From: Coniferiporia sulphurascens
Lineage: Eukaryota > Basidiomycota > Agaricomycetes > Hymenochaetales > Hymenochaetaceae
DNA length: 64,000 bases
Direction: 5' to 3'
NCBI GenBank assembly: GCA_002794785.1
Contig: NBBA01000013.1
Location: 1-64,000 of the forward strand
The notes under the pieces are model-generated. The model saw only the letters and a list, made by a program, of their open reading frames with translations, was not told the DNA's origin and made no database searches. Positions 13,829-42,143 of the stretch are shown here, in pieces; position 1 is the stretch's first letter; each line of letters begins with the position of its first letter. Both the position numbers and the translations under genes were made by a program.

Positions 13829-15150
13829 CCAGAATTAAAGAGTGCCCTTGTGGGGCCCCACTACATGTACACCTTCCTCGTGACATAGATGCCTGACCAA
13901 AGGACTTATACCCGACACGCTGTCCTCTACGATGCGCTGGATTGGGAAGGGCATGCCGCACCAGGAGGACATTCCGAGTGAGGGTCGTGGCACAATAGGC
14001 ACTACCCCACCCATTGGGTGCCCCCCCTACCCTACACATTCCCCCCCTTACCCCGCTTACCATTGTAGAGCGCCACTAGTTTCTGGGAATCAACTTAAGC
14101 ATGCAATAGGACTTACTCCTACACGCACCCATGCCAGATTTAGTGCTCTGGAGCCAGTGAAGGGAACTACCCCCCACCGCTACAGCTTGCTCCATAGTGG
14201 GAGGGTTTCTTAGGCCCCCCCGGAGTTTCCTGTTCCCTGGCACATGCTTCAGAGCCCCAAGGGGGAATACTCAGGCACAAGGCCCGCTTCTGGATCCGCA
14301 ATGTACTGGAGTTGATGTGTTGCTGTCGCTTGGACCCCAGCGCTTGTTACAGCCGCCAGGGAGTCCGCTCCGACTAACCACCTCTCGAGGGGTACCAGTG
14401 TCCTTCCCACTTCGATGGGAGAGGGCCGGCTACCAGGGACTTCCCACAACTGCTAGGTGAGCCCCAGCGTTGTCCCCCCAAGAGGCCCATGGTGGCCTAT
14501 CGCTTTCATGTCGGCTGGTTCTTACCGCAATGCCATGTGTTATGAAGCCCCTATCTCCTTATAGCAACTAGTGCTGTCATCAGAGACCCTTTCAGGATTT
14601 GGGGTGGCCGTTTTTATGGTTTGTCTTGCCAGGGACAATGCGGCCCCAGGATTTTTAAGTCCCGACCCGAAGGCCAGATCCGAGTTTCCCTGAACCCGAG
14701 GTCTCCCGACCGAAGCCGACTGCTGAAGGGCAGAGGGTTACCCCCCCCTGCGTGGGTGTGGGGACATTAATGTCGTGTCCCCCCCGACTGGCAGGCATGC
14801 GCCCCTTGCGCCGCCGAGAGGCGGACCAGCCAAGCACCATGCCCTGAGAGAGCACAGCAGACATGAGGAAGGATCTTGGTACTCACTGAGCCATCCCCCC
14901 CCACTGCAACGTTAACGACAGGTTGCATACCTCCTGGCGGGTGTGAGCCCCTTTCGTGCCATCAGATGACGCCATTACAGCACCTCAGCGACCAGTGAGC
15001 AGCACTCCTTTACAAAAGGTGCACAGTCAGGAACCTTCTCTCATGTCGGCCCAGTAGAATACCAGACCAGAGCATGGGTTGCTGTGATGAACCCCGAGAC
15101 AACCCCCAGTGAAAACCAGAGATGGTGGTGGTAAGAGGACAAGAAGGATG
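13829..15150 (-). mobile_element. Non-coding module of composite Ch0 (~1.3 kb)
   Basis: On the minus strand the module begins at 15150 with the shared block CATCCTTCTTG...ACCACCACCATC and ends at 13829 with TTAATTCTGG. It aligns along its length to 18424-19689, 24561-25222 plus 32553-33160, and 40876-42143. No reading frame is kept among the copies, although a GGGACATTAATGTC-type inverted repeat is. It is like the WEIRD half of Magnaporthe MINE elements in organisation, not shown to be so in sequence. Confidence 0.75.
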
Positions 15151-15697
15151 AGGGGTTGTGCCCTGTGGTCTTCTTCCTGGGTGGAGTCGAGGTTGGACCA
15201 CAAGTGGTGGCGACAGTTGAAGTCGCCAGCCACCATGAGGGCAGTGGCAAGGGCTGAGGGGAGAGAGCAAAGGAACGTCTCACCTGGGTACCCTAGTCTG
15301 GCTTCCGCTCTGTCGGGGGGCAACATACCATAGTAGTTGCACACCCTGACTCGTCGGATGCCCTGGATCTCCACCGTCACGATGTCTGTGCCGCTTGAGG
15401 CTGGGCCGACAACTGACCATGAAGACTGGGGGAGGATCCTTGAGATGTATGTGACCACCCTAGGTTGGGTGGCCGGAGGGAGAACTGGGACGAAGCCAGG
15501 GATTGACGGCACGTTGAGTACCGGGTCTCCATCTGGGTTAGTGAGTGAGGGCTGGAGCCCGATCTGATACCATGGCAGCTCTTGGATCAAAATCAGGTGG
15601 GGGGAAAGGGTTCATTAGTGAGGGTGGGAATTAGTGAATGAATCGCTGCAAGTGAGTGGGCAGTGTTCCACTGGAGTACTCGGATTTGTGCACTCAT
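15151..15697 (-). pseudogene. LINE-D ORF2 fragment (endonuclease N-terminal half)
   Basis: The ATG at 15697 overlaps the ORF1 stop as ATGA. A 1-nt deletion near 15600 relative to LINE-G shifts the frame. From about 15590 the frame encodes IQELPWYQIGLQPSL, then GDFN at about 15215 and the EEDHRAQPL segment, where the non-coding module cuts in. RT and RNase H are absent. Confidence 0.85.
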
Positions 15698-17721
15698 TGG
15701 TCCTCTTCCATGAAGGGGTCGGTGTCCTCTTCAACCTGTAGGGCAGAGTTGATGGTGCAGAAACGCTTCTTCTTCAGGCAGGTGGGCAGGGTTGCGGGGT
15801 GGTCGCCCTGGCAGTTCGCACAGTGGCAGGGGTGGGGGCAGGTGTCTCCTTCGACTGCATCATTTGCACAGTATGTGCATGACTTATGATGATTGGCCAT
15901 CAAGTGCTGTCCGGCACATTCGGCACAACAAGCCTGGGCTTGGCAGCCCTTCTTTCTGTGGCCTAGTCCTTGGCAGCACTCACATTGGGTGAGGCCGGGC
16001 CAGACTGGTGGGACCGAAAGGCGGAGGGAGGATCCGAATAGGTACACCCTGTTCCTCTTGAGGAGCCGTGCTTGGGTTTGCCTGTCTGGGTCGACAAAGG
16101 TGAAGGATACTGGGCATGCCGCCAAAAGGGGGAGCTTTTCCGGTACCATTGCATAGTGGGGGGGCACCACGAAGTCGAGGTGCTTGAGGGAGGGGTTTTG
16201 GCGGACCTCCGCTAGGAGTGCCACCTCGGTGATGGGGTGTGGGTTTTGCCCGAAGAAGACGTCCCTGCAGGGCACCATGGAGATGCGTAACGTCGATCTA
16301 GGGTGAACTCTGGAGGGGGTTAGTTGGAACTGGTCCGAGATGGGCCGGTCCGCTGGGAGGGCTAGGCAGCGATCACACATGTATTTTGTGAATGCATCCG
16401 CATGGCAGTCAATGATCACCAATGTGGTTGGGGTGGAGGAGGCAGGTCTTTCTGCAAAGGTGGTCACCAGGTTGCCTTTAGCATTAAACTTAGAGGACAA
16501 CACGGTGACTGTGTCAGCAGTAGGCAGGGCCCGGAAGAAACCCTGGGCCATTTCCGTGAGAGATGCGCCTGACTTACACATAGCTGCAGGGGCGACTAGG
16601 TCCTGCAGTGTTAGCACCAAGGTGGGTTCCTTGGCGTACATCTTGGGGGGGGGTGGTGGTTGCCTGACTTTCTTCGCCTTCTTTGCTGGGGCTGTCTGGG
16701 CTGCGGGGGGCTGGGGGAGGTTAGCTGCTATCGCTGCTAATTGAGTGTACATCATTGGGGCTCCAGCCGGCACGACTTTCGCCGTGGCCTCAAGCTGAGC
16801 TGGGGTTATGGTGGTGGTGACTGTTGCCATGGTGGTGGGGGTGGGGGTGGTTCCTCCCACGTTGGTGGGAGTTTGCTGCGGGGCCTGTTGTGGCCGCGGG
16901 GCAGGGCATGATGCCAAGGAGGAGACCTGTTGGGTGAGGTTCCCCACATCGACTGAGAGCCGCTTGACGATGTCTGCCAGTGATGAGATCTGTGAGTCGG
17001 GGGGAGTAGGTTGGGCTTGAGCCTGCTGGTTAGTCCTTGTGTTGAAGGTAAATGGGGCTCTCATGGAGGAGGAGAATGGTGCGCCGAGTGAGATTCTCGC
17101 TCCCATCGTGGATTGGGCATACTCCTGTTCCACTGCGCAGGTGGCAATGTGGTCCGGATCATCCCGATCTTGCATCCGGTATGTTGTCGAGAGCATTTCA
17201 TGACTGAGGGCCGTTAGTTTCCCCAGGAATGCTGCTGTCGCCTGTACGACTGATGTGGAGCTGGCGGCCTTCTCTATGTTGGCCTTGAGGGTGTTGAGGG
17301 CCCTTTCTATGTTCAGTGCGAAGTCTGTCAGTGCTCGGACGAACTCTGAGGTGACCGGCCAGTTGCGAGGGGTCTCGGGGGAAAGGATGTCGGCTCTGTG
17401 TTTGCCAGTCGACTGGGGGGGTGTATGTGGGTTGTCCCGCATCTGGTCGTCATTGTCCTGGATGGCAGTCTGCTGAACCAGGGCGACGTCGAGGGCGGTT
17501 TGCGTCCCCCTTTGCGGCCACTCGTTGAGGTCGCCGATGGGGGTGACTCCTGTTAGGTTGTCATAGTTGGGGGCGGTTAGTCGGGCTGGTGGGGACAGCG
17601 AGTGGCTATGGGGGGTGGTTGGCGACTGACGGCGGCCAGGATTGGCCGCTCCAGACGTGGTAGAGCTAGCTGTAGAGAGGCCTGTGGGTCGTAGTGGACG
17701 ACCACCGAACCGATCTGCCAT
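15694..17721 (-). CDS. LINE-D ORF1 (gag-like CCHC protein), intact
   Basis: This 675-codon frame is uninterrupted and is the only complete ORF1 of the large subfamilies here. The start at 17721 (MADRFGG) follows the 60-nt leader and the CCCCCATGG context shared by the other copies. Order of parts: Ser/Pro/Thr-rich N-terminus; helical segment around residues 130-230 with the MGARISLGAPFSS block; a QQ/Pro linker; the KKAKKVRQPPPPP basic stretch near residue 375; the YAKEPTLVL block; and a C-terminal array of about three zinc knuckles beginning CX2CX4HX4C (CECCQGLGHRKKGC). The protein should coat element RNA and act as chaperone. Nothing shows it is expressed, and its partner ORF2 is truncated. 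Confidence 0.85.
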   Translation of the reverse strand: MADRFGGRPLRPTGLSTASSTTSGAANPGRRQSPTTPHSHSLSPPARLTAPNYDNLTGVTPIGDLNEWPQRGTQTALDVALVQQTAIQDNDDQMRDNPHTPPQSTGKHRADILSPETPRNWPVTSEFVRALTDFALNIERALNTLKANIEKAASSTSVVQATAAFLGKLTALSHEMLSTTYRMQDRDDPDHIATCAVEQEYAQSTMGARISLGAPFSSSMRAPFTFNTRTNQQAQAQPTPPDSQISSLADIVKRLSVDVGNLTQQVSSLASCPAPRPQQAPQQTPTNVGGTTPTPTTMATVTTTITPAQLEATAKVVPAGAPMMYTQLAAIAANLPQPPAAQTAPAKKAKKVRQPPPPPKMYAKEPTLVLTLQDLVAPAAMCKSGASLTEMAQGFFRALPTADTVTVLSSKFNAKGNLVTTFAERPASSTPTTLVIIDCHADAFTKYMCDRCLALPADRPISDQFQLTPSRVHPRSTLRISMVPCRDVFFGQNPHPITEVALLAEVRQNPSLKHLDFVVPPHYAMVPEKLPLLAACPVSFTFVDPDRQTQARLLKRNRVYLFGSSLRLSVPPVWPGLTQCECCQGLGHRKKGCQAQACCAECAGQHLMANHHKSCTYCANDAVEGDTCPHPCHCANCQGDHPATLPTCLKKKRFCTINSALQVEEDTDPFMEEDQ

Positions 17722-17781
17722 GGGGGAGTTTGAGCTGCCCGCACTAGGGAGATGGTGGTGGTAAGAGGTCAAGAAGGGATG

Positions 17782-18423
17782 GTCATTGAACCCCATGAGT
17801 ATGACGAAGGAAATGAAGAGGACTACGTCCTCAACTCGGACCCCCCATACCGGACACCCTTGCCTGCCGCCTCACAAAAACGGAACGCAACGGCCCTGTC
17901 ACCTCACACCCCCCGACCCTGCCCAAGCATGGCATGCAGCCCACTGGACGGTTTCTTGGACGCCATCACCGACCTGCACTCCGGCTACTTCGAAGCCGTG
18001 GCCAACACCACCCCCGGTGAAAGCCATGAACAAGCGGTGGCGCAACTTCTCGGGCAGACAGCCTATGTCGTGCTCAAGACACTTGATGCCCTCCACAGGG
18101 CCAGGAAGGATGACCTCCACCCAACAAGGGCAATGTTCGATGCGATCGTCGCCTACCAGCACATGGGGGAGGGAGGCTTCGACCTCCCATACCCCTTCCA
18201 GCCAGCTCGCCCCCAGCAGGGGCCCCCGGCCACCACCAGGACTCCAGGCACCACCCCCATGACCCCAGAGATGAAGGTGCTGACCAATGCAGTCAAACAC
18301 CTGACTACTGATGTGGCTTCTATTTCCCATCAGATGTCTTCTCTAAGCTCCAGGCCCACCCCTCGTCAACAGCAACAGCAACAGCAACAGCCCACCCCCC
18401 AGGTGACAATTTCGATCACCCCC
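17782..18423 (+). pseudogene. LINE-E ORF1, N-terminal fragment
   Basis: The open frame from the left junction encodes an acidic/Pro-rich stretch, the SPLDGFLDAITDLHS segment (equivalent to the N-terminal helical block of LINE-B ORF1), an MTPEMKVLTNAVKHLTTDV segment and a glutamine run (18368-18400). Ch1 interrupts it at 18423 and the rest of ORF1 resumes at 20191. Confidence 0.8.
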
Positions 18424-20190
18424 ATCCTTCTTGTCCTCTTACCACCACCATCTTGGTTTTGCGACTGGGGTTGGCTGGGGGAAGTCGCAGCTACCCGACC
18501 TTGCTTGGACTCTCTGGGACTGGGCATCATACAAGAGAAGGTTCCAACTCACCCTGGTGCGCTGGGGTTGGTTGTCAGTCGCTGTAACGCGGCGGGGAAC
18601 GGGTGTGGAGCTTGCTGGCGGTCTTGGCAACCTGTCGAAAACGTTGCCTCTGGTTGGATTCTCGGTGAGCTTGCATCCTTCTGGCATCTGCACTGCCCTC
18701 TCGGGGTGGCGTGCTCGTTGGGCCTGCATTGTATGTGGGCTCAGTGGGGGGGGACATGATGTTAATGTCCTCACAGGGGGGGGGGGAAACCCCCTGCCTC
18801 ACAGCGGGCGACTTCGGTTGGGTGATCTTGGTTCAGGGCAACTCGGATCATGCCTTCGGGTGCTGAGCAATGCCCTCTTGGGTACCTCGGGGCCCACATT
18901 GTCCCTGGCATGACAAATCAAAAACTGCCCCCCCAAATTCCCAAAAGGGTCTCTGATGACGGCACTTTGTGCTAAAAGGAGATAGGGGGCTCATAACACA
19001 TGGCGTGGCAGTAAGAACCACCCGATGCTGAAAGGCGACAGGGAACCATGGGCCTCTGGGGTGGGTTGGACCCCCTGGAGGTGGTTAGTATCCCCTACTC
19101 CCTGGGATGGCTTTGCCACCGGGGTCGGGTATGCGAGACGGAGATCCTGGTACGATTGCGGATCCAGAAGCAGGGCTGGGGGTTGACTGGGCGTTTGTCC
19201 CATGACCTTGGTTCCTGAGTATTCCAGCTGTAATGGCTGTTTCTGAAGCACATGCCAGGGCATGGGAAAGGGCCTGCATGGAGTGTGTGTCGGCTTTCCG
19301 GCACACTGAAGTGTAGTGTCTTGGGCCGTAGCACTGTGGGATAGTCCCCCATAGTGGCTCCAGAGGACTAAATCCTCTGTCGGTCTGTGTGGGGGTAATT
19401 CCCACTATGGGCTTAAGTTGATTCCCAGAAGCGCAACGGTACTCTACAAGACCTCTATGGTCAGGGAGGGAATGTGTAGGGTAGGGGGGTTGTTCCATAT
19501 GGGTGGGGTAGTGCCTACGGTGCTGCGACCCTCACCCGGGATGGCCCCCTGGCATGGCACACCTTACCCTAGTGCTCCAATATAGCGCCCATATGTCATA
19601 GAGGACAGTGGGAGCAGTTTTGGTCGGCTGCATATCCCGAGGAAGGTACATGTGTTGTCTGAGTCCCGCAAGGGCGCTCTTAATTCTGGCCACCATCCGC
19701 TTGGCCTTCACCACGATGGACCTAGAGGGGCACCCTACTGATGAAGATATGGACTTGGACCTCCTCTGGGAATACATGAGTCGTATGCTTGGACCCCGAC
19801 CCCAGGACCCGGACCCAGCTCTCTTGGAGCTTTCAGGTATGCTTCCTCCCTTTTCCTCTACTCAGTGACTGCCTTTCGGACTCTCCCGCATATGTCCCAG
19901 CCGGCACTCTTGCCCTCCCTTTCCAATTCTAAGTTACCCCCGTTACCTGCTCTCACCTGCTTGGTTTCGTCATAGCAATATGTATTCCTCTCCCCTGTTC
20001 ATCCTTCACTAATAGGGACCCTTCCCACCTTGGCACCCTTTGGGGAGCAGGGCCCCCGCCCAGTTTTGTGTGCTGTGCAATGACGGGTGCCTCTATTGTT
20101 ATGTAGTTAGGGCCCCCCCTTTGGGGGGGCAGCTTGTAATTATGTAATACTGCAGGAATAATAATAAAAAAAATAAAAATAAAAATAAAA
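18424..20190 (+). mobile_element. Composite retroelement Ch1 (non-coding module plus LINE tail)
   Basis: The module spans 18424-19689, opening with the shared 5' block and closing with TTAATTCTGG. It is fused at 19690 to LINE 3' sequence starting inside the last ~70 codons of ORF2 (ATCCGCTTGGCCTTC...), then 3' UTR, hairpin (about 20111-20131) and an A-rich tail ending near 20190. The whole unit is flanked by GATC[A/G]CCCCC within LINE-E ORF1, so module and tail moved together as one insertion. It cannot encode its own RT and would need a LINE ORF2 in trans. Confidence 0.85.
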
Positions 20191-24560: not shown

Positions 24561-26222
24561 CCATCCTTCTTGTCCTCTTACCACCACCATCTCGGTTTTG
24601 CGACTGGGGTCAGTTGGGGGGAAGTCGCAGCTACCCGACCTTGTCTGGACTCTCTGGGACTGGGCATTGTACGAGAGAAGGTTCCAACTCACCCTGGTGC
24701 ACTGGGGTTGGTTGTCGGTTGCCGTAATGCGGCGGGGAATGGGTGTGGAGCTCGCCAGTGGTCTGGGCAACCCGTCGAAAACGTTGCTACTGGTTTGGAT
24801 TCTTGGTGAGCTTGTATCCTTCTGGCGTCTGCGCTGCTCTCTCGGGGTGGCGTGCTCGTTGGGCCTGCATTGTATGTGGGCTCAGCGGGGGGGGACATGA
24901 TGTTAATGTCCTCACAGGGGGGGGGGAAACCCCCTGCCTCACAGCAGGCGACTTCAGTTGGGTGATCTTGGTTCGGGGCAACTCGGATCACACCTTCGGG
25001 TGCTGAGCAATGCCCTCTTGGGTACCTCAGGGCCCGCGTTGTCCCTGGCATGACAAATCAAAAACTGCCCCCCCAAATTCCCAAAAGGGTCTCTGATGAC
25101 GGCACCTAGTGCTAAAAGGAGATAGGGGGCTCATAACACATGGCATGGTGGTAAGAACCACCCGATGCTGAAAAGCGACAGGGCACCATGGGCCTCTTGG
25201 GTGGGTTGGACCCCCTTGAGGTCATCCCTTCTTGACCTCTTACCACCACCATCTCCCTAGTGCGGGCAGCTCAAACTCCCCCATGGCAGATCGGTTTGGT
25301 GGTCATCCCTTATGACCTACAGGCCTCTCAACAGCTAGCTCTACAGTGTCCAGAATGACCAACCCTGGCCACCATCAGTCGCCAACCACCCCCCGAAGCC
25401 GCTTGCTATCCCCACTGCCACGACTCACCCCTCCCAACTACAATGCCCTCACAGGCGAAATCCCGCTAGGCGACCTCAACCAGTGGCCCCAGCGAGGCAC
25501 ACAGACCGCCCTTGACGTCACCCAAGCCCAGATCACATCAGGGCAACAGCAAGACAACCAGATGCGGGATGAACCGCATACACCCCCTCAGTCGACAGGC
25601 AAACGCAATGCCGACGTCCTCTCCCCCAAGACCCCCCACAACCGGCCGGTCACATCAGAGTTCATCCGAGCCCTGACAGACTTCGCACCAAATGTGGAAA
25701 GGGCACTCGACACCCTCAAGGCTGGAATCGAACAGGCCGCCAACTCCACAGTGGCCATACAAGCGACAGTGGCATTCCTGGGGAAACTAACAGCCCTCAG
25801 CCATGAAGCTTTGTCGACAACGTACTGGATGCAAGATAGGGATGACCCGGAACACATAGCCACCCATGCAGCGGAGCAGGAATACGCCCAAGCCACGATG
25901 GGAGCGAGAATCTCACTCGGTGCACCCTTCTCCTCCGCCATGAGGGCCCCATTTACCTTTAACACAAGGACTAACCCACAGGCCCAAGCCCAACCTACCC
26001 CCCCCGACTCACAGATATCAGCACTAGCGGACATCATCAAGTGGCTCTCAGTTGATGTGGGGAACCTCACCCGCCAAGTCTCCTCCATGGCCTCGCGCCC
26101 TGCCCCGCAGCTACAACAAGCCCCACAGCAGACTCCCACCAATGTGGGAGGAACCACTCCCGCTCCCACCACCATGGCAACAGTAGCCACTACCATTACA
26201 CCGGCTCAACTCGAGGCCGCAG

Positions 26223-27127
26223 TTTTTTTTTTTTTTTTTTTTTTAAATCAGCATTTGTATACCGCTACATTACATAGTAAAAGACGCGGATGTGAGACCA
26301 TTTGAAGTGTCGTGTCAGAGGAGATTAACAAGGTATAAAGTTCCTGGGCTTAAGGTGATTAAAAGGTATGAGGTTTTGTTGTCGGAGGTTTCTAAATGGT
26401 TTTGTCAGGAGGGATATGAATCGGAAGAGCAAATTGTGAAGGGGGAGGTGGTGGTTTTATGGATTCTATGATGACTAATACTGATTGTGAAAGATGGAAA
26501 AACTACTGGATTTTTTATGTTGTGCATGTGGGCATGGTTTGAATTGTTTTATGTCCGATATTTGTGACTCTGAGAGTGGTGACGTGACAGCGCTTGGAGC
26601 GGCATGTGTGCGTGAGGCTATGGGCAGGTTGCCATGAGGTGTGAAGGTGTCAGCGCTTGGAGCAGCAGGTGTGCGTGAGGCTAGGGCCAGGTTGCCATGA
26701 GGTGTGGAGTTGACTGCGAATTGTAGGAGGACTGATGTTAAGTCTATGCATGGGCCATAGTGGCTGAGGTGTTCTCGGTAGAGGAAGATATGCCGTGAAT
26801 TGTGTGGTTGCCCACTAATGCTGATGACCTGTAGTTTGTACTGGCATATGGCCCAGTCTAGTATGTGCTGGTTGTCGTTAACGAGGTTGAAGGGTTCATA
26901 TGTGGTGTCGGTTTCGAAGTTTGGCACCGGGAGGTGAAGGAATAGAAGGGGGCATGGGGAAATGGGGGAAAGGGGGAGTGGAATGGTGAACAAGGCCGTA
27001 AAACAGCTCGACGGATGTCTACTGTGAGTGAGGACTGGTGTGGGTGGTTAACCCAGGGAATTTAGGGGTGGTGCGAGTCGGTTTGCGCTGGGTGAGATGA
27101 TGGTGGTTAGAGGTCAAGTGTCCCGCG
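26223..27127 (-). mobile_element. Element X: 905-bp short retroelement with poly(A)
   Basis: A poly(T) at 26223-26244 marks the 3' end, and a variant of the shared block (TTGACCTCTAACCACCATCATC, broken into its two parts) lies ~11 nt from the 5' end near 27115. A 12-bp TSD TCGAGGCCGCAG flanks it (26211-26222, 27128-27139). The body is unlike the LINEs or the composite module. Its 3' end (TATACAAATGC then TGATTTAAA in sense) recalls that of LINE-F (TATAGAAATGC then ATTTAAA), hinting that a LINE-F relative mobilises it. Confidence 0.8.
26475..26993 (-). CDS. 172-codon ORF in element X, unknown product
   Basis: I do not recognise this protein. It opens with a Pro/Leu-rich stretch and contains two near-copies of a ~20-residue unit (TPHGNLALASRTPAAPSAD and TPHGNLPIASRTHAAPSAV), encoded by a 57-60-nt duplication near 26590-26720. 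There is no RT, nuclease or zinc motif. It may be a chance frame in a short non-autonomous element; with one copy there is no way to see selection. Confidence 0.35.
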   Translation of the reverse strand: MFTIPLPLSPISPCPLLFLHLPVPNFETDTTYEPFNLVNDNQHILDWAICQYKLQVISISGQPHNSRHIFLYREHLSHYGPCIDLTSVLLQFAVNSTPHGNLALASRTPAAPSADTFTPHGNLPIASRTHAAPSAVTSPLSESQISDIKQFKPCPHAQHKKSSSFSIFHNQY

Positions 27128-28223
27128 TCGAGGCCGCAGTGAAAGCCGTGCCAGCAGGAGCCCCAATGACGTACGCCCAGTTAGCGGCAATCGCAGCTAA
27201 CCTCCCCCAGCCCCCAGCAACCCAGACAGCCCCAGCAAAGAAAGCAAAGAAAGCCTGGCAACCACCACCTCCTCCCAAAATGTATGCCAAGGAACCCACC
27301 TTGGTACTAACACCATGGGACCTAGTCACTCCTGCAGCAATGTGTAAGTCAGGTGCCTCCCTCACCAAAATGGCCCGGGGTTTCTTCTGGGCCCTGCCTA
27401 CTGCTGACGCAGTCACCATGTTGTCCTCTAAGTTTAACACCAAAGGCAACCTGGTGACTACCTTTGCAGAAAGACCCACCTCCTCCACACCAACCACATC
27501 GGCAATCATTGATCGCCATGCGGACACGTTCACGAAGCATATGCATGACCGCTGCCTAGCTCTCCCAGCGGACCGGCCCCTATTGGACTGATTCCAACTA
27601 ACCCCCTCCAGAGTACGACCCAGATCAACATTACGCATCTCAATGGTGCCCTGCCGGGACGTCTTCTTCAGGCAAAACCCACACCCAATCACCGAAGTGG
27701 CCCTCCTTGCGGAGGTTCGCCAGAACCCCTCCCTCAAGCACCTCGATTTCGTGGTGCCCCCACACTACACCACGATACTGGAGAAGCTCCCTCAACTGGC
27801 AGCCTGCCCAGTATCCTTCACCTTCGTCGACCCAGATGGACAAACCCAAGCTCGCCTCCTCAAGAGAAACAGGGTGTACCTATTCGGCTCCTCCCTCCGC
27901 CTTTCGGTCCCACTGGTCCGGCCCAGCCTCACCCAGTGTGAGCGCTGCCAAGGACTCGGCCATGGGAAGAAGGGCTGCCAAGCCCAGGCTCATTGTGCCG
28001 AATGTGCCAGACAGCACTTGACAGCCAATCATCATAAGTCGTGCACATATTGCGCAAATGATGCAGTCGAAGGAGACGCCTGCCCCCACCCCCGTCACTG
28101 TGCTAACTGCCAGGGTGACCACCCCACCACCCTTCCCACCTGCCCAAAGAAGAAACGCTTCCGTGTTATCGACTCCGCCCTTCAGGAAGAAGAGGACACC
28201 GACGCCTTCATGGAAGAGGACAT

Positions 28224-31200
28224 ATGAGTGCACAAATCCGTGTACTCCAGTGGAATGCTGCCCGCTCACTTGCGGCGATTCATTCCCTAATCCCTGTCCT
28301 CACTAACAAACCTTCCCCCCCTCACCTGATTCTGATCCAGGAGCCGCTGTGGTATCAAATCGGGCTACAGCCCTCACTCACCAACCCAGAAGGGGAAGCA
28401 GTACTCAACGTACCAACAATCCCCGGATTCATACCAGTACTCCTGCCAACCACCCGACCCAGGGTGGTGACCTACGTCTCAAGGACCCTCCCCCAATCTG
28501 CATGGTCAGTCGTCGGCCCAGCCTCAAGTGGCACCGACATGGTGGCGGTGGAGATCCAGGGAAACCGCCCCATCAGGGTGTGCAACTACTACGGTATGTT
28601 GCCCCCGGATAGGGCAGAAGCCAGACTAGGGTACCCAGGTGAGACGTTCCTCAGCTCTCTCCCCTCGGCTCTTGCCTCCACCCTCACGATTGCTGGCGAC
28701 TTCAACCGTTGCCACCATTTGTGGTCAACCCTCGACTCAACCCAAGAAGAAAATCGTAGAGCCCAACCTCTGGATGACTTCTTTAGGGAAAATGGCCATG
28801 AACCAGCCCACCCACCCAACTGCGACACCCGACCCCTCCCAGGGTGGCGGAGATGCCCAATCGACATGGTATGGGCACCACCATCAATCAATCCAGAGTC
28901 CATCATGGACTCCTTTAAAGCAACCCCATCACCACTTTCCGACCACCAAGTCCTGTGATGGTCAATACCAACCTCAATACCCCGGCCCACACCTATGACC
29001 CAGAAACTCAACAATGAGGATAAGGACAGTTGGACAGAGGCCGCTTTCCCAGCCCTCACAAATGCATTCGCCCTACCGGTAGTGGATGCTAACTCCCTCG
29101 ATCTGAAAGTGAGCGCCATTCTTAAAGCCATGACAGATGCACTGCAACCATTCACCAAAATCCGCACTCCGTCAAAAACAGCTGTCCCCTGGTGGTCGTC
29201 CAACTGCCGGGATCTACTGAACTCAATTCACAGTGCCCAAACACCAACCGCGAAAGCGGTGGCAAGACGCTCATTCAAACGAGGGGTGCGAGCCGCTAAA
29301 CGAACATACTACTCAGAACAGGCATCAGAGGCCGACCCCTCCAACATCTGGTCATGGGCCAAATGAGGCCTGGGCATCCACCCAACCCAAGTACCTTCAC
29401 CCAGACGGATGACGAGAAAGGTGAGCTCTTCAGATCTACTTTCTTCCCACCGCCCCCCCCACTCCCGGCTGTGGGCCTTGGCCCCCTGCCCCCCCCTACC
29501 CCAGCTGCGCCACCATTACTCTTCACCAAGCTTACAGGCGCACTGGCCGATACTTCCAACTTGTCGGCTCTGGGCCCCTTGGGGATCGGGTATCGCCCCC
29601 TGAAATGGGTGGTCGATGCCTACCCAGATGAGGTACTAACGCTTTTCAACGACTGCCTGCGACTGGGTCACCACCTGGCCTGCTGGCGGATGGCAAAGGT
29701 CATAATGCTACAGAAGCCAAACAAGAAGGACCCATTCTCCCCCCGGTCCTATCACCCCATTACCCTCGAGGAAACCCTGGGCAAGTTACTCAAGAAAATG
29801 ATTGCTAACCGGCTCCAGTACCTTGCAAACACGAGGAACTGGCTGCCACCAAACCAGTATGGAGGATGTCAGGGCCACTCGGTCTATGACGCCACCCAGC
29901 ATCTTCTACAGATCATCGAAGGCGCACATGCAAAAGGCCTTGTATGCTCTATCCTAGTGGTAGACATCCAAGGCTTTTTCGACTCAGTGCACCCTAGACG
30001 ACTCCACCACCAGCTTTTGGAGATGGGATGCCTGCCGAACATGGCAGAGTGGTGTCTCTCCTTCATGATGAACAGGGAAGTGGCTGTCTCATTCAATGGC
30101 ACAACCCTACTGACTGCACCAAAGCCCGACCTCGGCACCCCACAAGGGTCACCGGTCTCACCGATCCTATCGACAATTTTCGCAGGTATTGTGATACAGC
30201 GCTTCCAACAGTGTGGCTCCCAACTGCTAGCATACGTCGATGACCACCTCATCACCTGTGTGGGCACATCAGTTACAGCTAACTGCCAATCCCTCACACA
30301 GGCCTACCAACAACTCGACCTCCTCTTTTGCCAAATCAGCCTCAACATCGAGCCAGCAAAGACGGAGGCCCTCCATTTCCACCCGCCCAGGAGGCAAACC
30401 GGCTACCACCACTGGGACACCACTGGGATTCAAATCAACGCTGCAACCCTAGTCCGACCCACCAACCCCCTGCGATGGCTCAGGATTTGGTGGGATGCGG
30501 GCCTCACCTTCAAACCGCACGTGGAACGCATGCGTTCCAAGGGGCTATCAACATTGGCGGCCCTTCGCATTCTTGGCAACACTGAGAGGGGTCTCTCAGC
30601 CATCCACCTCCGCCGACTCTACACTGCCTGCGTATGCACTGTCCTAACTTGGGGCGCACCAGTATGGTACCATGGACATCGACAAAAAACTCTAGTCAAC
30701 CGACTACAGGCTGTGCAGAACACTGCTTGCCATTGGATATTAGGCGTCTATAAGGGCGCGTCTCCTCACTCCACAAATTTTCTTTGTTCCACCCCCCCAT
30801 TTTTCGCTTATTTTGAATATTTAAAAACCACCCACGCACTGCGCCTCTGGCGCACCCCCCACCGAGTAGGGCAGAAAAAGTTCAACCCTAATGCTAATAC
30901 CCCTTTTTCCCTTTCGCTGCAGGTCTGCGTCCCCCAAGTCCAACGGATCCCAGCGTACACGCACCCCCCCTGGACGGACCCCCTTGCCTTCGGTAAAGGG
31001 CGCATTGTCTTCTCAGTCCCAAGGCAGCCTGTCTCTTCGAACCTACGTGACCACTATGTCGCCCAGGCCAGGATATGCTGCAATGATACCTCCCTGCAAA
31101 TCTTCACTGATGGCTCACACATCAGAAATACCTCAGGGTCAGCCATCTGCAGCATGAAGGGAACACTCCAAATTAGCTCCCTCAAGCTCGCCTCCCCCAC

Positions 31201-32201
31201 CTGTGCCACAGCAACAGACGCCGAGATCTTCTCATTGGTGACTGCCCCAGGCTGGGCAGCAAGACGACTCCACCACCTACTGTCAGACATCCAGGAGATC
31301 TTCTTCCTCTCGGACTCCCTGACAGCACTTGGACTCTTCCGTTCCTGGCCCTCCGCTTCGGGGGCCCAGCTCCTCCCCCTCTGGAAGGCAGGGGTCGAGA
31401 CCCTCCTCGACTCGTTTCCGAATCTAACCGTTCATTTCCGATGGTGCCCAGGGCATGAGGACATCCCTGGGAATGAATGGGCGGACTCCGAGGCGAAGCT
31501 AGCAACCGAGCTTCCCCCATCTTCCCTCGCCCCCTCAATCTCCGCTCTGAAGGAAGTGGCGACACGCACACTCAGCGAACGCTGGTCCCTTCAGCTGGCA
31601 CGCCCCCTGGCCTCAACCACCGACAAATACCTGGTGGTGACAGGGCCCCCTACACGAAGACCAAGAAAGCTTATCACAATCTTGGTCGACCACCCTTGCG
31701 CGGAACTCACTGCGGTGGTGCAGGTCCTCTGCCATGCCGGTCCCTACAGGGGCTACTGGCTGAGCTTCGACTCAGCCTACTGGCACAGACATGGCCTGAT
31801 CTCCCACTGCAGGTGGCACAACCACCCTCCTTGGCCAGCACAGTCAACCTCCCATATCCTTGGCGGATGCGAAACCTTCCAGCCCTGGATACGATGTGTC
31901 TGGCCCAAGAGCGACCCCCCCCCTGTCCACCACACGAATGGGCAGATGAAAACCACCTTCTCGTCTTAAGGTGCTGGCTATGCCTTACAGGCCACCTCAA
32001 TCGGATGTCTAACCGCACAGCTGGGGCGATCCGCCTTGCCTTTGCGGCTATGGACCTAGACGAACTCCCCACCGATAACAACCTCGACTTGGATACCCTC
32101 CGGGGCTACGTGTGCAGGTTGCTTGGATCCAGGACTCAGGAGCAGACCTGGCCCTTTTGGAGCTCTCAGGTACGCTCCCCCCATTTCCCTCTGACTTGTG
32201 A
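28224..32201 (+). pseudogene. LINE-G ORF2: endonuclease, RT, RNase H; broken
   Basis: Endonuclease motifs QWNAARS, LIQEPLWYQIG, GDFN and SDHQVL are present. TGA follows SDHQVL at about 28957 (relatives: CGN) and again at about 29365 in WAK-GLG. A ~30-nt deletion lies near 29390. From 29354 to 31969 the frame is open for 871 codons: DIQGFFDSV, GTPQGSPVSP, YVDD (about 30235), then FTDGS, DAEIFS, SDSL, WCPGH and NEWAD of RNase H with all catalytic acids. Frameshifts near 31935 and 32145 disturb the C-terminus, which ends at 32201. Confidence 0.92.
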
Positions 32202-32460
32202 CTGCCATTCGGATTCCCCTCAGTTTCTTCTATGGCAATCGCAGCCACTCCTTTTCACTTCTAAGGGACTCTCTCTGCCTGACCCCGTTTCAAACGGCTT
32301 TGGTTTTCGTGTAGTTGCAATATGTATACCTCCCTCTCCCCCCCCTATTTATCCCTAATAGGGCGCGTAAGTACACTAGGCCTCCTCGGAGGCACACACC
32401 CCGCCCAGTTTCACTCGATGAGCAATGATGGGCGCCTCAGTAGTTAGGTAGTTTACAGGT

Positions 32461-32474
32461 GGCCCCTTCGGGGC
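32461..32474 (+). other. 3' UTR hairpin of the LINE-D/G/H subfamily
   Basis: GGCCCCTTCGGGGC folds into a short GC stem with a TTCG-type loop, ~65 nt before the A-rich tail. LINE-H and the Ch3 tail (minus strand, about 35417-35432 and 40475-40490) keep the stem with a TAT loop. It takes the same position as the longer C7/G7 stem of LINE-A/B/E. Confidence 0.55.
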
Positions 32475-33593
32475 TGCAGGTGTATTACATAGCACAGCAG
32501 GAATAATTAAAATAAAATAAAATAAAAAATAAAAAAAAGACCCCCTTGAGGTGGTTAGTATCCCTTACTCCCTGGGACGGCCTTGCCACCAGGGTCGGGT
32601 ATGCGAGATGGAGATCCTGGTATGACCACGGATCCAGAAGCGGGGGCCAGGGGTTGACTGGGCACTTGTCCCATGACCTTGGTTCCTGAGTATTCCGGCT
32701 GTAACGGCTGTTTCTGAAGTGCATGCCAGGGCACGGGAAAGGGCCTGCATGGAGTGTGTGTCGGCATCCTGGCATGCCGAAGTGTAGTGTCTTGGGCCAT
32801 AGCACTGTGGGAGAGTTCCCCCCAGTGGCTCCAGAGGACTAAATCCTCCATTGGTTCGTGTGGGGGTAATTCCCACTATGGGCTTAAGTTGATTCCCAGA
32901 AGCGCAGCGGTACTCTACAGGACCTCTATGGTCAGGGAGGGAATGTGTAGGGTAGGGGGGTCATTCCATATGGGTGGAGTAGTGCCTATGGCGCCGCAAC
33001 CTTCACCCAGGGTGGCCTCCTGGTGCGGCACGCCTTACCCTAGTGCTCCAATATAGTGCCCATATGTCGTAGAGGACAGCGGGAGCAGTTTTGGTCGGCT
33101 GCATATCCTGAGGAAGGTACACGCATTGCTTGAGTCCCGCAAGGGCGCTCTTAATTCTGGCCTATGGGACTACATGCATCGTATGCTCGGACCCCGAACC
33201 CAGGACTCGGACCCAGCCCTTTTGGAGCTCTCAGGTACGCTCCCCCCCTTCCCACTCGAGTAAACACCTGCCTTTCGGATTCCTTCTGATATGTCTCGGC
33301 CGGCGCTCTTGCCCTCCCTTTCCCATTCTAAGCTTCTTTCCATTACCTGCACTAACCTGCTTGGTGCGCTCGAAGCGATATGTACTCCGCCTTCTCCTGT
33401 CTCCCTCTAACTCAATAGGGGCTCTACACACACCGGCACCCCCCTCGGGGAGCAGAGCCCCTGCCCAGTTTTGTGCGATGCACAATGACAGGCGCCTCCA
33501 TTGTTATGTAGTTAGGGCCCCCCCCAGAGGGGGGGGCAGCTTGTAATTATGTAATACTGCAGGAATAATAAAATTAAAAATTTAAAAAAAAAA

Positions 33594-35352: not shown

Positions 35353-35695
35353 CCTTTTTTTTTTTTTTTTTTTTTTTAAATTTATTATTCCTACTGTGCT
35401 GTGTAATACACCTGCAGCCCCATAGGGGCCGCCTGTAAACTACCTAACTACTGAGGCACCCGTCATTGCTCATCGAGTGAAACTGGGTGGGGCATGTGCC
35501 TCCGAGGAGGCCTAGTGTACTTATGCACCCTATTAGGGATAACTAGGGAAGGGAGAGAGGGAGGTATACATATCGCGACTACAGAGAACCCGAGCAAGTC
35601 AAAATGAGGTCAGGAAAGGAGAGTCCCTTAGAAACAGAAAGGAGTGGCTGCGATTGCCATAGAAGAAACCGATGGGGAATCCGAAGGGCAGTCAC

Positions 35696-36256
35696 TGTTA
35701 CAATTTTCCTTTACTTTTCCCTTATTGCACTGACTCACTTCCACTTCATAATCATCAGTCAGCGCAACTCCCCCATTTCTCTGTCTTACTCATCCTTATC
35801 CACCTTACACCATAAGATGCCATGATGACGCCTTAGTGCACCACCATGACGTGCTTTGCTTACTGATCACCGTACTTGTATTACCAAGGCCTTCCTTGAG
35901 TTTCCATGACCTTCCTTAGTCTGGTAAACACACCTAACCAAGTTGCTACAGTAGCAAACACATAGAGTAGCATATAAGCATGTAACTTCAGTAGCACAAG
36001 CCCTAAGCTTGTGCTCTTTGTTCATACAAGCCCATTATCTGCTACCACCAGTCTACTGTGTGCCGTTGTGCCACTTAGTCGCTTCGTCATAACCCGACTC
36101 GCCATAAGAAGCCTACCGTGTCCACATCGCCGATCAGGAAGCCCCGTCACCGATCACCTTCGACTTATGACATCTAGGAAGCCCCGTTGCCGTACCATCA
36201 GTCTCAACAATCAGGAAGCCCCGATGTCGATCATCGCATAACCATTGAGCTTAACA
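35696..36256 (+). mobile_element. Solo LTR 1 (561 bp)
   Basis: Ends TGTTACAA...CTTAACA with a perfect 5-bp TSD GTCAC (35691-35695 and 36257-36261), inside the LINE-H 3' UTR. Strand is chosen from the CATATAAGC box near 35970, which reads as TATA in this direction. The LTR holds three spaced copies of a CAGGAAGCCCC motif and an AGCACAAGC/GCTTGTGCT inverted repeat. No internal region is present, so it arose by LTR-LTR recombination. Confidence 0.88.
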
Positions 36257-36871
36257 GTCACAAGTCAGAGGGAAATGGTGGGAGTGTACCTGAGAGCTCC
36301 AAAAGGGCCGTGTCCGCATCCTGAGTCCTGGATCCAAGCAACCTGCGCATGTAGCCCCGGAGGGTATCCAAGTTGAGGTTGTTATTGGTGGGGAGTCCGT
36401 CTAGGTCCATAGCCGCAAAGGCAAGGCGAATCGCCCCAGCTGTGTGGTTAGACATCTGGTTGAGGTGGCCTGTAAGACGTAGCCATCATTGTAAGACCAG
36501 AAGGTGGTTTTCGTCCGCCCATTCGGTATGGTGGACAGGGAGGGGGTCGCTCTTGGGCCAGACATGGCGTATCCAGGGCTGGAAGGTTTCGCATCTGCCA
36601 AGGATATGAGAGGTTGACTGTGCTGGCCAGGGTGGGTGGTTGTGCCACCTGCAGTGGGATATCAGGCCATGTCTGTGCCGATAGGCTGAGTCGAAGCTCA
36701 GCCAGTAGCCCCCATAGGGACTGGCGCGACAGAGGACCTGCACCACTGCGGTGAGTTCCACACAAGGGTGGTCGACCGAGATTGTGATAAGCTTTCTCAG
36801 TCGTCATGTGGGGGGCCCTGTTACCGCCAAGTATTTGTCAGTGGTGGAGGCTAGGGGGTGGGCCAGCTTAA

Positions 36872-37430
36872 TGTTAAGCTCAACGGTTACGCGGTGATCA
36901 ACGTCGGGGCTTCCTGATCATCGGAACTGATGGTATGGCAATGGGGCTTCCTAGATGTCATAAGTCGAGGATGATCGTCAATGGGGCTTCCTGATCGTTG
37001 ATGTGGACGCGGTAGGCTTCTATAGCGAGTCGGGTTACGACAAAGCGACCAAGGGCCAAGTGGCACACAGTAGACTGGTGGTAGCAGATAATGGGCTTGT
37101 ATGAACAAAGAGCACAAGCTTAGGGCTTGTGCTACGGAAGTTACATGCTTATATGCTATTCTATGTGTTTGCTACTGTAGCGACTTGGTTAGGTGTGTTT
37201 ACCAGCCTATGGAAGGTCATGGAAACTCAAGGAAGGCCTTGGTAATACAAGTACGGTGATCAGTAAGCAAAGCACGTCATGATGGTGCAATAAGGCGTCA
37301 TCATGGCATCTTATGGCGCAAGGCGAATAAGGATGAGTAAGGGAGAGAAATGGGGGAGTTGCGCTGACTGATGATGGCGAAAGGGAAGTGAGTCAGCGCA
37401 AAATAGGAAAAGTAAAGGAAAATTGTAACA
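36872..37430 (-). mobile_element. Solo LTR 2 (559 bp)
   Basis: Starts TGTTAAGCTC and ends TTGTAACA on the plus strand, with a perfect TSD CTTAA (36867-36871, 37431-37435). It is about 90 percent alike by eye to the other four copies and opposite in orientation to solo LTR 1. It lies within LINE-H ORF2, between RNase H and the C-terminal tail. Confidence 0.9.
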
Positions 37431-38268: not shown

Positions 38269-38828
38269 TGTTAAGCTCAACGGTTACATGGTGATCGACG
38301 TCGGGGCTTCCTGATTGTTGAGGCAGATGGTTACGGCAACGGGGCTTCCTAGATGTCATAAGTCAAGGGTGATCGTCGGTGGGGCTTCCTGATCGATGAT
38401 GTGGACGTGAGGTGCTTCTTAACTGAGTCAGGTTACGACAAAGCGACTAAGGGCCAAGTGGCATGCAGTAGACTGGTGGTAGCAGATAATGGGCTTGTAT
38501 GAACAAAGAGCACAAGCTTAGGGCTTGTGCTACTGAAGTTACATGCTTATATGCTACTCTATGTGTTTGCTACTGTAGCAACTTGGTTGGGTGTGTTTAC
38601 CATACTATGGAAGGTCATGGAAACTCAAGGAAAGCCTTGGTAATACAAGTTCAGTGATCAGTAAGCAAAGCACGTCATGATGGTGCAATAAGGCGTCATC
38701 ATGGCATCTTATGGCACAAGGCGAATGAGGATGAGTAAGGCAGAGAAATGTGGGAGTTGTGCTGACTGATGATGATGAAGGGGAAGTGAGTCAGCGCAAT
38801 AAGGGGAAGGCAAAGGAAAATTGTAACA
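38269..38828 (-). mobile_element. Solo LTR 3 (560 bp)
   Basis: TGTTAAGCTC...TTGTAACA, with TSD A[T/C]GTG (38264-38268 and 38829-38833; one mismatch). It lies in LINE-H ORF2 between RT and RNase H. Removing it restores the GAGACGTGCCCTTATAG segment expected from LINE-G. Confidence 0.87.
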
Positions 38829-40417
38829 ACGTGCCCTTATAGACGCCCAATATCCAATGGCAAGCAGTGTTCTGCATGGCCTGTAGTTGGTTGACTAGGG
38901 TTTTTTGTCGATGTCCATGGTACCAAACTGGTGCGCCCCAGGATAGGACAGTGCACACACAGGCAGTGTAGAGTCGGCGGAGGTGGATGGCTGAAAGGCC
39001 CCTCTCGGTGTTGCCGAGGATGCGGAGGGCCGCCAGTGTTGATAGCCCCTTGGAACGCATGCGTTCCACATGCGGTTTGAAGGTGAGGCCTGCATCCCAC
39101 CAAATCCCGAGCCATTGCAGGGGGTTGGTGGGTCGGACCAGGGTTGTGTCGTCGATTTGAATCCCAGCAGTGTCCCAGCGGTGGTAGCTGGTTCGCCGTC
39201 TGGGCAGGTGGAAATGGAGGGCCTCCATCTTTGCTGGCTCGATGTTGAGACCAATTTGGCAGAAGAGGAGGTCGAGTTGTTGGTAGGCCTGTGCAAGGGA
39301 TCGGCAGTTAGCTGTCACCGAGGTGCCCACGCAGGTGATGAGGTGGTCATCGACATATGCTAGCAGTTGGGAGCCACACTGTTGGAAGCGCTGTATCACA
39401 ATACCTGCGAAAATTGTCGATAGGATCGGTGAGACTGGTGACCCTTGTGGGGTGCCGAGGTTGGGCTTTGGTGCAGTCAGTAGGGTTGTGCCATCGAATG
39501 AGACGGCCACTTCCCTGTTCGTCATGAATGAGAGACACCACTCTGCCATTTCTGGCGGGCATCCCATCTCCAAAAGCTGGTGGTGGAGTCGTTTTGGGTG
39601 CACCGAGTCGAAGAAGCCCTGGATGTCTACCGCTAGGATAGAGCATATGAGGCCTTTTGCTTGTGCGCCTTCGACGATCTGTAAAAGATGCTGGGCGGCA
39701 TCATAGACCGAGTGGCCCTGACATCCTCCATACTGGTTTGGTGGCAGCCAGTTCCTCGCATTGGCGAGGTACTGGAGCTGGTTAGCAATCATCTTTTCGA
39801 GTAACTTGCCCAGGGTTTCCTTGAGAGTAATGGGGCGATAGGACCAGGGGGAGAATGGGTCCTTCTTGTTTGGCTTCTGTAGCATTATGACTTTTGCCGT
39901 CCGCCAGCAGGCTGGGTGGTGGCCCAGTCTCAGGCAGTCATTGAAAAGCGTTAGTACCTCATCTGGGTAGGCATCGACCACCCATTTCAGGGGGCGATAC
40001 CCGATCCCCAAGGGGCCCGGAGCCAACAAGTTGGAGGTATCGGCCAGTGCGCCTGTGAGCTCAGTGAAGAGTAGTGGCAGCGCAGCTGGGGTAGGGGGGG
40101 GCAGGGGGCCAAGGCCTGTGGCCGGGAGTGGGGGGGGCGGTGGGAAGAAAATGGATCTAAAGAGCTCACCTTTCTCGTCATCCGACTGGGTGAAGGTGCC
40201 GTCCCCGTGTTTTAGCGAAGGTACTTGGGTTGGGCGGATGCCTAGGCCGCATTTGGCCCATGACCAGATATTGGAGGGGTCGGCCTCCGATGCCTGTTCT
40301 GTGTAGTATGTTTGTTTAGCGGCTTGCACCCCTCGTTTGAATGAGCATCTTGCTGCCGCTTTTGTGGTTGGTGTTTGGGCACTGTGAATCGCATTTAGTA
40401 GGTCCCAGCAGTTGGAC

Positions 40418-42143
40418 TTTTTTTTTTTTTTTTTTGATTTATTATTCCTACTGTGTTCTGTAATACACCTGCGGCCCCATAGGGGCCGCCTGTAAACTAC
40501 CTAACTACTGAGGCACCCGTCATCGCTCATCAAGTGAAACTGGGCGGGGCACGTGCCTCCGGGAGGCCTAGTGTACTTACACACCCTATTAGGGATAAAT
40601 AAGGGAGGAGAAGAAGGAGGAATACATATCGCGACTACAAAGAACCCAAGCAAGTTAAAACGAGGTCAGGAAAAATGAGTCCCTTAGAAGCAGAAAGGAG
40701 TGGCTGCGATTGCCATAGAAGAAACCGATGGGGGATCCGAAGGGCAGTCACAAGTCAGAGGGAAATGGGGGGAGCGTACCTGAGAGCTCCAAAAGGGCCG
40801 TGTCCACGTCCTGAGTCCTGGGTCCCAGCAACCTGTGCACGTAGCCCCGGAGGGTATCCAAGTCGAGGTTGTTGTCCACGATTAAGGGCGCCCTTGCGGG
40901 ACCCATCACTACACATACACCTTCCTCATGACATTGCTGCCCCCAGGACAAAGGCCTTACATGCGACATGCTGTCCTCTACGGCACGCTGGGTTGGGTAA
41001 GGCGTGCCATGCCAGGAGAACACCCCGAGTGGAGGTCGTGGTGCCGTAGGCACTACTCCACCCATTGAGATGCCCCCCCTACCCTACACATTCCCTCCCT
41101 TGCCCCGCTTCCCACTGTAGAGTGCTGCTGGATCATGGGAATCAACTTAAGCCCAACATGGGAATTACCCCCACCCGAACCCATGGAGGATTTAGTCCTC
41201 TCAAGCCGAATGAAGGGAACTACCCCCCACCGCTACAGCCCACTCAGAGGTCAGGTTACCCCAACATGAGTTTCCCGTTCCCATGCACGCACTTCGGAGC
41301 CCAGGGTAAACCCCGGGGAATACTCAGGATGGAGTCCTGCTTCCGGATCTGCAGCATACACAAGTCTCTGTGTTGCCAGAGGCTTGGACCCCGGCCTATC
41401 TCTTTCGAGGCTGCCAGGGAGTCCGCTTGACTAACCACCCCCAGTGGAGCACCAACCACCTCCTGTCATTCCCAGTGAAGGGTTCACAAGTAGGGGCCTG
41501 CCATCTCCCCTGAGGGCCCGTGGTGGCCTGTTGCTCTCGCATCGGCTGGTTATCACCGACAACGCCATGTGTTATGAGACCCCTATGTCCTTATGGCATC
41601 CAATGCTGTCATCAGACACCCTCTCGGGATTTGGGGATGGCAGTTCTTTGATTAGTCTATGCCGAGGACTACGTGGCCCCAGGTCCGAGTTTCCCCGAAC
41701 CCGAGGTTTCCCAACTGAAGCCGACTGCTAGATGGGCAGGGGGTTTCCACCCTCCCGTAGGGACATTAACATCGTGTCCCCCCCCGACTGGTGGGCGTAC
41801 GCACCCTTGCGCCACCGAGAGGCAGACCAGCGAGCACACTGCCTCGAGAAGGTCAGTGCAGACATGAAGAAGGATCATCCTCACCGAGTCACCCCCCCAT
41901 TGCAACGTTTTCGACGGGTTGCATACCCTCTGGCGAGTGGTTAAGCCCCTTTCGCGCCATCCAGCGATGCCGCTACAGCACCTCGGTGGCCAGTGAGCAG
42001 CGCTCCTTTATAAAAGGTGCACAGTCGGATGCCTTCTCTCATGATGCCCCAGTAGTATACCAGAGCAGAGCACGGGTTGCTGCGACTGACCAGAGACGAC
42101 CCCAGAGCGAAGGTGAGATGGTGGTGGTAAGAGGACAAGAAGG
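40418..42143 (-). mobile_element. Composite retroelement Ch3 (LINE tail plus non-coding module)
   Basis: Poly(T) at 40418-40435, then LINE 3' UTR and the last ~30 codons of ORF2 to 40875. At 40876 it switches to the module (TTAATCGTGG edge), which runs to 42143 and ends in the shared 5' block. Here the tail is of the LINE-D/G/H subfamily, whereas Ch0, Ch1 and Ch2 carry LINE-A/B/E tails. The left flank is LINE-H and the right flank is low-copy DNA, with no matching duplication. Confidence 0.82.

Follow-up and report, generated by a model that had tools for sequence, protein, structure and literature searches.

How does one non-coding sequence come to stand, copy after copy, in front of the 3′ end of a long interspersed nuclear element (LINE) that begins at a different point each time? 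The question is raised by a stretch of 64,000 nucleotides of the fungus Coniferiporia sulphurascens (here the window), which occupies positions 1-64000 of contig C13, at an end of that contig, in a searched assembly of 39.35 Mb and 31 contigs. The protein encoded at 60322-61431 shares 84% identity with one from Coniferiporia weirii and 50-60% with those of other named Hymenochaetaceae, as suits a hymenochaetoid basidiomycete. An original prediction, made from the letters alone, had described four units in the window that join a 5′ module to a truncated LINE tail, and all four are present where it placed them (Table 1), with two module starts corrected by one base: the CATCC with which the element begins lies at 18423 and 24562, not at 18424 and 24561. 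The two pieces that had been read as one copy, 24561-25222 and 32553-33160, do belong together, separated by a later LINE insertion (25223-32538) with the target duplication GACCCCCTTGAGGT. The module edges of the four units are of types T1, T2 (two units) and T3, out of five edge types genome-wide (T1 to T5), and the distance of the junction from the 3′ end of the LINE reference differs in every unit. We consider it very probable that modules are recurrently joined to LINE sequence and that the products are then inserted as LINEs are.

Whole-module searches of the genome scored the best 40 of 285 candidates for T2 and the best 40 of 299 for T1; the 3′ edge was therefore chosen as the whole-genome probe, using the pattern CTTTAATTCTGG for T1, separate patterns for the other types, and reversed patterns as controls. 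The edge occurs at 161 places (70 T1 and 91 of other types), and the reversed controls gave no match. Merging identical downstream 50-mers reduced these to 154 distinct downstream stretches (T1 67, T2 60, T3 14, T4 7, T5 6); five of the seven merged rows were compared, four having tails identical at 284-290 of 290 bases and one (L072) at 193 of 290. Tails were placed by alignment to two LINE references, the alignment having to start at most 60 nt from the edge. Sense LINE sequence follows 149 of the 154 edges, at 93 LINE positions with a median of 802 nt from the LINE 3′ end, and the two LINE subfamilies already suspected as partners account for 117 (R-type) and 32 (A-type) of the mapped tails. 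Repeated chimera formation, as originally proposed, is upheld by these 93 positions in place of one shared junction, and no full-length parent containing both module and LINE sequence was seen. By module type, mapped T1 tails are R-type only (66/66), T3 tails A-type only (14/14), T2 tails of both kinds (40 R, 18 A), and T4 joins one place in the LINE 3′ untranslated region (6 mapped; L151 by its first bases). At T3 edges the next bases are ACA or ATA in 11 of 14. Of the five unplaced edges, three (L014, L093 and L159) resemble LINE by eye or in comparison with other copies, L151 carries about 20 nt of LINE before foreign sequence, and L185 carries 15 nt before antisense LINE.

A single chimera family that transposes as a unit, its tails altered later by gene conversion or divergence, would also yield many copies with one edge. 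At the 14 positions used at least three times, 45 of the 56 tails have their better match outside the group, 10 have it within, and one is tied, the outside pool being the larger; the L064 tail, for example, is 95.2% identical to a LINE in L008 and 85.4% within its group, and the L044 tail 96.0% identical to a window LINE and 84.3% within its group. Most joins are thus separate events, tails at shared junctions being for the most part more similar to LINEs elsewhere than to one another. The reuse of junctions fits the sequence motif described below on its own, with 72 distinct sites among 111 R sites against a simulated mean of 67 (range 59-74). The single-family account draws some support from T4, which always joins the same LINE place, from pairs with near-identical tails (L106/L124, L135/L136, L142/L148, L020/L180) and from near-duplicate chimeras (window/L146 at 96.4%, L105/L123, L107/L125), but several of the near-identical pairs lie on C14 and C26 and look like duplicated DNA. 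The evidence contradicts it for the whole of T1 and of T2, not for T4 or parts of T3, and as a general explanation we hold it to be very improbable. Contigs C14 and C26 hold a series of similar or near-identical chimeras (L105/L123, L107/L125, L106/L124, L142/L148, L020/L180), which suggests that the assembly contains a second haplotype or that a segment has been duplicated; L105/L123 and L107/L125, which are included in the counts, may accordingly be duplicated DNA.

Module and tail entered the genome together wherever target duplications can be read, as had been claimed. The enclosing duplications claimed for the window hold for the 18423 unit (GATCRCCCC, with one transition, or 11 matching bases if two element bases are counted) and for the 24562 unit (AYGAATGGGCT, one transition, with three extra bases ahead of CATCC), but none was found around the 13829 and 40876 units, where they were looked for. 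Outside the window, an A-rich tail together with an enclosing duplication was read in L003, L006, L056, L068 and L022, the last with an exact 15-bp duplication around a module that lacks its first bases. For most copies the duplications are unreadable, because in many cases the tail runs beyond the end of the locus or another insertion interrupts the locus. CATCC opens the element, the 5′ block comes next, and 25 copies chosen for length measure 1263-1322 bp from CATCC to the edge; shortened and split copies exist as well. Insertion of the module, as DNA or RNA, into LINE copies already in place could account for its sense orientation and for a fixed edge beside LINE sequence; since the readable duplications enclose module plus tail, we regard it as more improbable still than a single transposing family.

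The junctions obey a site rule, for which statistics were gathered on T1, T2 and T5 (n = 132; 152 of the 154 sites, all but two, had a LINE relative). In the best LINE relative, the three bases just before the junction are YYR at 89 of 132 sites against 17.4 expected from local sequence, and YYR↓C, the arrow marking the junction, is found at 70 of 132 against 5.7; shifting the register by one or two bases lowers this count to 4-7. The most enriched triplets are CCG (11.8×), TCG (6.8×), CCA (6.0×) and CTG (5.1×), with YYY at 0.93×, and when each LINE position is counted once, YYR precedes 56 of 89. The LINE relatives are about 75-96% alike to the tails, and C/T decay blurs G and A at position −1. 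The joins are nearly blunt: for 127 of 132 junctions, the first four bases after TGG match one or more of the LINE relatives compared (up to six each), transitions being ignored in this lenient test. YYR is the set of triplets that pairs with the module-terminal UGG if G-U pairs are permitted; a longer pairing between module end and LINE was looked for and not seen. A pairing role of UGG in choosing the site is conceivable, at somewhat less than even chances in our estimate.

The same motif could arise from simple pausing, in which the reverse transcriptase (RT) halts before pyrimidines, CC for example, and then makes a blind jump to some abundant RNA, so that the site would not depend on the acceptor. 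Reuse of sites fits the motif alone, as noted above, and the published junctions of Magnaporthe MINE elements also follow pyrimidines, with GCC↓A/U (PMC2104539, as far as that paper was covered). Against pausing, site choice varies with module type, T1 and T2 differing at +2 and T3 and T4 using few sites of their own, so that the acceptor module seems to influence where the junction falls, judged from the sequences; the force of this point is lessened in that the differences among T1, T2, T3 and T4 may lie partly in the LINE partner (T3 joining A-type in 14/14). Two or three plain LINE truncations (L029, L194, perhaps L008) are also without YYR by eye, too few to count. Blind jumping after a pause strikes us as rather unlikely.

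The module end that would meet the LINE is also engaged within the module. In an RNAalifold consensus of the T1, T2 and T3 modules, the final six bases are paired with the CCAGAA that lies inside the conserved TTAAGTTGATTCCCAGAA, and T3 carries two adjacent compensatory changes. RNAalifold proposed 363 pairs from these three sequences, of which the closing helix alone was tested, and guide predictions were for that reason written down ahead of the search. For T4, which ends in UGUUGG, the predicted guide CCAACA was found in 5 of 7 copies, the guides of the other two not being located; for copies ending in UCUUGG, the predicted CCAAGA was found in 2 of 3, and the third has CCATGA. The count comprises 106 guide places, drawn in part from the first 100 of 125 places listed, and some module copies therefore fall outside it. 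An edge lies 202-276 nt downstream of 97 of the 106, and nine have no edge within reach. All six pairs, with G-U allowed, are present in 92 of the 97 linked copies, in four co-varying versions of the guide, and the remaining five have one mismatch; the paired types are CCAGAA/TTCTGG (77), CCATGA/TCGTGG with one G-U (6), CCATGA/TCATGG (2), CCAACA/TGTTGG (5) and CCAAGA/TCTTGG (2). At C17:770834 and C17:771108 a guide CCATGA and an end TCTTGG occur with one mismatch, a copy that is perhaps a recombinant of two types.

Structure prediction and the covariation of the closing helix describe the module as a putatively structured, apparently non-coding RNA. Stretches of 100 nt (three from the 3′ end, one from the 5′ end) fold no better than shuffled sequences. 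At the Rfam gathering score the window gave no match; with E up to 1, the T2 module gave two sub-threshold matches and the T1 module none. A reading of AAUUCUGG as an Sm site or a telomerase RNA feature was dropped, as T3 and T4 have no U run and Rfam returned nothing.

The modules themselves fall into diverged lineages, about 70-77% identical. The window copies of T1 and T3 share 73-77% identity; T2 compares with either at about 68-76% in blocks, short stretches being more alike. Shared transversions occur within T2, where a clade of L003, L004, L006 and L011 (99/95) carries four different junctions (936, 1829, 986 and 514). The modules are therefore mosaic, since of 28 pairs of transversion sites among 22 copies (without L020), 16 do not fit a single tree. 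CpG-type transitions make up 1221 of 1906 differences in the alignment of 23 T2 copies, pointing to methylation-linked decay. Matches to module-type 5′ blocks number 252 against 161 edges; six of the surplus blocks (L207-L212) were read for 180 bases each, and all begin modules or diverged variants, L207 ending after about 93 nt at antisense LINE.

A single-copy source gene, which had been suggested, was looked for among the edges and not found, and no LINE-free module was clearly seen among the 154 edges (L185 being unclear), copies without an edge having hardly been sampled. The diverged, mosaic modules are more easily reconciled with several active sources than with a lone host gene, and no candidates other than the chimeras were seen; a source may have been lost, may be missing from the assembly or may differ from the edge pattern. 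Given several module lineages and the lack of a LINE-free copy among those seen, the chimeras are the likeliest source RNAs, a role that we favour by a small degree.

Taken as a whole, the explanation that we consider probable is that the module serves as acceptor during LINE copying, and the best reading of it is a structured RNA parasite of the LINE, copied as the 5′ half of a chimera. The module, with its fixed 3′ end ...AAUNNUGG, would act as acceptor; copying of LINE RNA during retrotransposition would continue from an internal YYR↓C onto the module 3′ end and run to the module 5′ end, a brief pairing of the terminal UGG with YYR of the LINE RNA marking the place. The LINE machinery would then insert the chimeric complementary DNA, in the order 5′-module, truncated LINE and A-tail-3′, within a target duplication. 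In the free module the same 3′ end would be held by the internal guide (CCAGAA and its co-varying versions), and chimeras would be the source RNAs, each round losing or skipping the old tail and acquiring a new one. The alternatives weighed here each replace single steps of this model, and their probabilities do not sum to one.

For the joining step, an RT jump is given an even chance. Template switching, as the original prediction had it, is something we infer, and nearly blunt, rule-bound junctions are explained at least as well by joining at the RNA level. There, LINE RNA would be cut at YYR↓C and its 3′ piece joined to the module 3′ end by a ligase or by module catalysis, comparable to the first step of intron reverse splicing, before retrotransposition. 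Such joining would suit the lenient count of blunt joins, a donor site rule that is two-sided, the lack of any mapped junction at the exact LINE 5′ terminus and the position of the module 3′ end within the guide helix, and RNA ligation is an alternative proposed for U6-L1 chimeras in the part of the literature covered (PMC13174262). Standing against it, no Rfam ribozyme or intron family matches, and LINE is the only partner recognised among the 154 edges, with L185 unclear. We give it a tentative place behind the jump. As a variant of it, spliceosomal trans-splicing was rejected, AG preceding the junction in just 7 of 132. Ire1-type sites are cut as CNG↓CNG; this candidate was likewise dropped, G at +3 not being enriched. 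A more far-reaching version, which from the sequences we rate as improbable, though less so than a single transposing family, would make the module a long-lived, structured and perhaps catalytic RNA parasite lacking its own 3′ end, which would attach its guide-held 3′ terminus to LINE RNA at YYR↓C, enter the genome as the 5′ half of that LINE, be transcribed from its LINE-like 5′ block, shed its tail at the guide helix and regain one in each round.

Several observations weigh against the module as a pairing acceptor in LINE copying. The +2 base is A in 25 of 67 T1 junctions and in 2 of 40 T2 junctions on R-type LINE (p 0.00015), which the model does not explain, nor does it give a good account of the few fixed sites of T3 and T4. 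In the LINE, G is commoner than A at −1, a preference that pure pairing with U does not predict, and T4 copies have T or C there. End-to-end jumps should be frequent at the exact LINE 5′ terminus, and none of the mapped junctions falls there, the nearest (L031) being about 6 nt inside. The predicted guides CCAAAA (T5) and CCACAA (two TTGTGG copies) were searched for and not found; CCAGAA and CCATGA could pair with these ends through G-U, and the guides of those copies were not located. Duplications flush with CATCC are few, clear in 4 of the 16 copies evaluated using only the first LINE 3′ end beyond the edge. The control of plain truncated LINEs is small: 20 further stretches yielded L029 and L194 as clear examples with duplications and L008 as a probable one.

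The features of the window are collected in Table 1. Its LINEs, which we take to belong to the Tad1 clade, encode endonuclease, RT and RNase H domains (PF14529/PF03372, PF00078 and PF00075) on separate frames of different copies. Another non-autonomous element lies at about 26224-27117 on the minus strand; its 5′ block TTGACCTCTAACCACCATCATCTC is related, its A-tail looks by eye unlike the LINE 3′ end, and its duplication ACTGCGGCCTCGA measures 13 bp. Distinct from these, a second LINE-like element has a 5′ block at 53222 on the minus strand (CATCCTCCTTGTCCTCTAACCACCACCATCT) and frames at 47745-53234; as it carries the same kind of block, this block may be common to several LINE families. A repeat of about 560 bp, perhaps a small DNA transposon, occurs three times inside LINE sequence (about 35698-36268, 36868-37430 and 38270-38830), with ends TTAAGCTCAACGGTTA... 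and ...GGAAAATTGTAACA, and its end is also found at LINE breaks in several loci. Across the genome, edges and the R-type LINE 3′ ends listed (100 of 926) are confined to one stretch per large contig, such as 1.33-1.58 of 4.98 Mb on C1, and these stretches are candidate regional centromeres.

Table 1. Module, tail, guide and LINE features of the window.
Feature	Positions	Strand	Details	Basis
Module T1	13829..15150	-	1322 bp; end CTTTAATTCTGG	Sequence read and edge probe
LINE tail of T1 copy	12704..13828	-	Junction 1132 nt from LINE R 3′ end; A-rich end	Alignment
Internal guide of T1 copy	14081..14086	-	CCAGAA; pairs with 13829-13834	
Module T2	18423..19689	+	1267 bp; CATCC... to CTTAATTCTGG	Sequence read
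5′ block	18423..18453	+	CATCCTTCTTGTCCTCTTACCACCACCATCT; variant form also in LINEs	
Internal guide of T2 copy	19425..19430	+	CCAGAA; pairs with 19684-19689 TTCTGG	
3′-terminal hexamer of T2 module	19684..19689	+	TTCTGG	
LINE tail of 18423 copy	19690..20190	+	Junction 506 nt from LINE R 3′ end; A-rich end	Alignment
5′ part of split T2 module	24562..25222	+	Interrupted by LINE insertion	
3′ part of split T2 module (24562 copy)	32553..33160	+		Edge probe
Internal guide of split T2 copy	32896..32901	+	CCAGAA; pairs with 33155-33160	
LINE tail of split T2 copy	33161..33592	+	433 nt from LINE R 3′ end; A-rich end	Alignment
Module T3	40876..42143	-	End CTTAATCGTGG; CATCC start decayed	Sequence read and edge probe
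Internal guide of T3 copy	41133..41138	-	CCATGA; pairs with 40876-40881 TCGTGG, one G-U	
A-type LINE tail of T3 copy	40418..40875	-	465 nt from LINE 3′ end; A-rich end	Alignment
A-type LINE	25223..32538	+	Start CATCCCTTCTTGACC; inside T2 module; further insertion near 26224-27117	
R-type LINE	4060..10492	+	Full 5′ block; tail coordinate reference; duplication AACACRAGAAATTG	

Short interspersed nuclear elements with LINE-derived 3′ tails are non-autonomous heads that use a LINE 3′ end, and each family keeps one tail, whereas the tails described here start at many places, T4 alone at one. The comparison with MINE (WEIRD-MGL) of Magnaporthe, drawn from the start, is apt by its published description: a non-coding 5′ RNA of about 1.1 kb, present at full length, stands before sense, 5′-truncated LINE tails that begin at many points, with 31 MINE copies, 28 sites among 33 chimeras, reused sites, target duplications and no solo WEIRD (Gogvadze et al. 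2007, PMC2104539). The genome studied here differs in its 161 edges, its several diverged module lineages and a 5′ block common with the LINE, as well as in a YYR↓C site to which the end of the module is complementary and an internal guide that co-varies, where MINE has the pyrimidine-rich motif GCC↓A/U, interpreted as RT pausing. In the parts of that paper covered, no structure is given for WEIRD, and micro-homology, not complementarity, was sought. By our own count of its Table 3, G-Y-Y stands just before the junction in 17 of 18 representative rows, so that the same rule predicts a WEIRD RNA ending in GGC or GGU.

U6-L1 and related mammalian chimeras resemble the present units in having a defined RNA upstream of truncated LINE 3′ ends, but their acceptor is a known cellular RNA and not a diversified repeat for which no source gene was seen (PMC4476161, PMC13174262, in the parts covered); an RT jump or RNA ligation has been proposed for them (PMC13174262). 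Trypanosomatid LINE/SINE pairs with Pr77, in which a short 5′ sequence is common to autonomous and non-autonomous elements, are similar in that respect; the openings of the abstracts mention no chimera cycle (PMC4748587, PMC8190864, PMC4035085), and promoter activity of the 5′ block described here is putative. Titles and abstract openings in the open-access literature reveal no such chimera in a fungus besides Magnaporthe. The complementarity of YYR to the module UGG, the co-varying internal guide and the mosaic, diverged module lineages look new. In the part of the MINE study covered, the origin of the 5′ RNA and the choice of junction were left undecided; some 150 junctions from a single genome, a site rule open to interpretation as pairing with the acceptor end, and a guide helix as a structural reason for that end make this old question testable.

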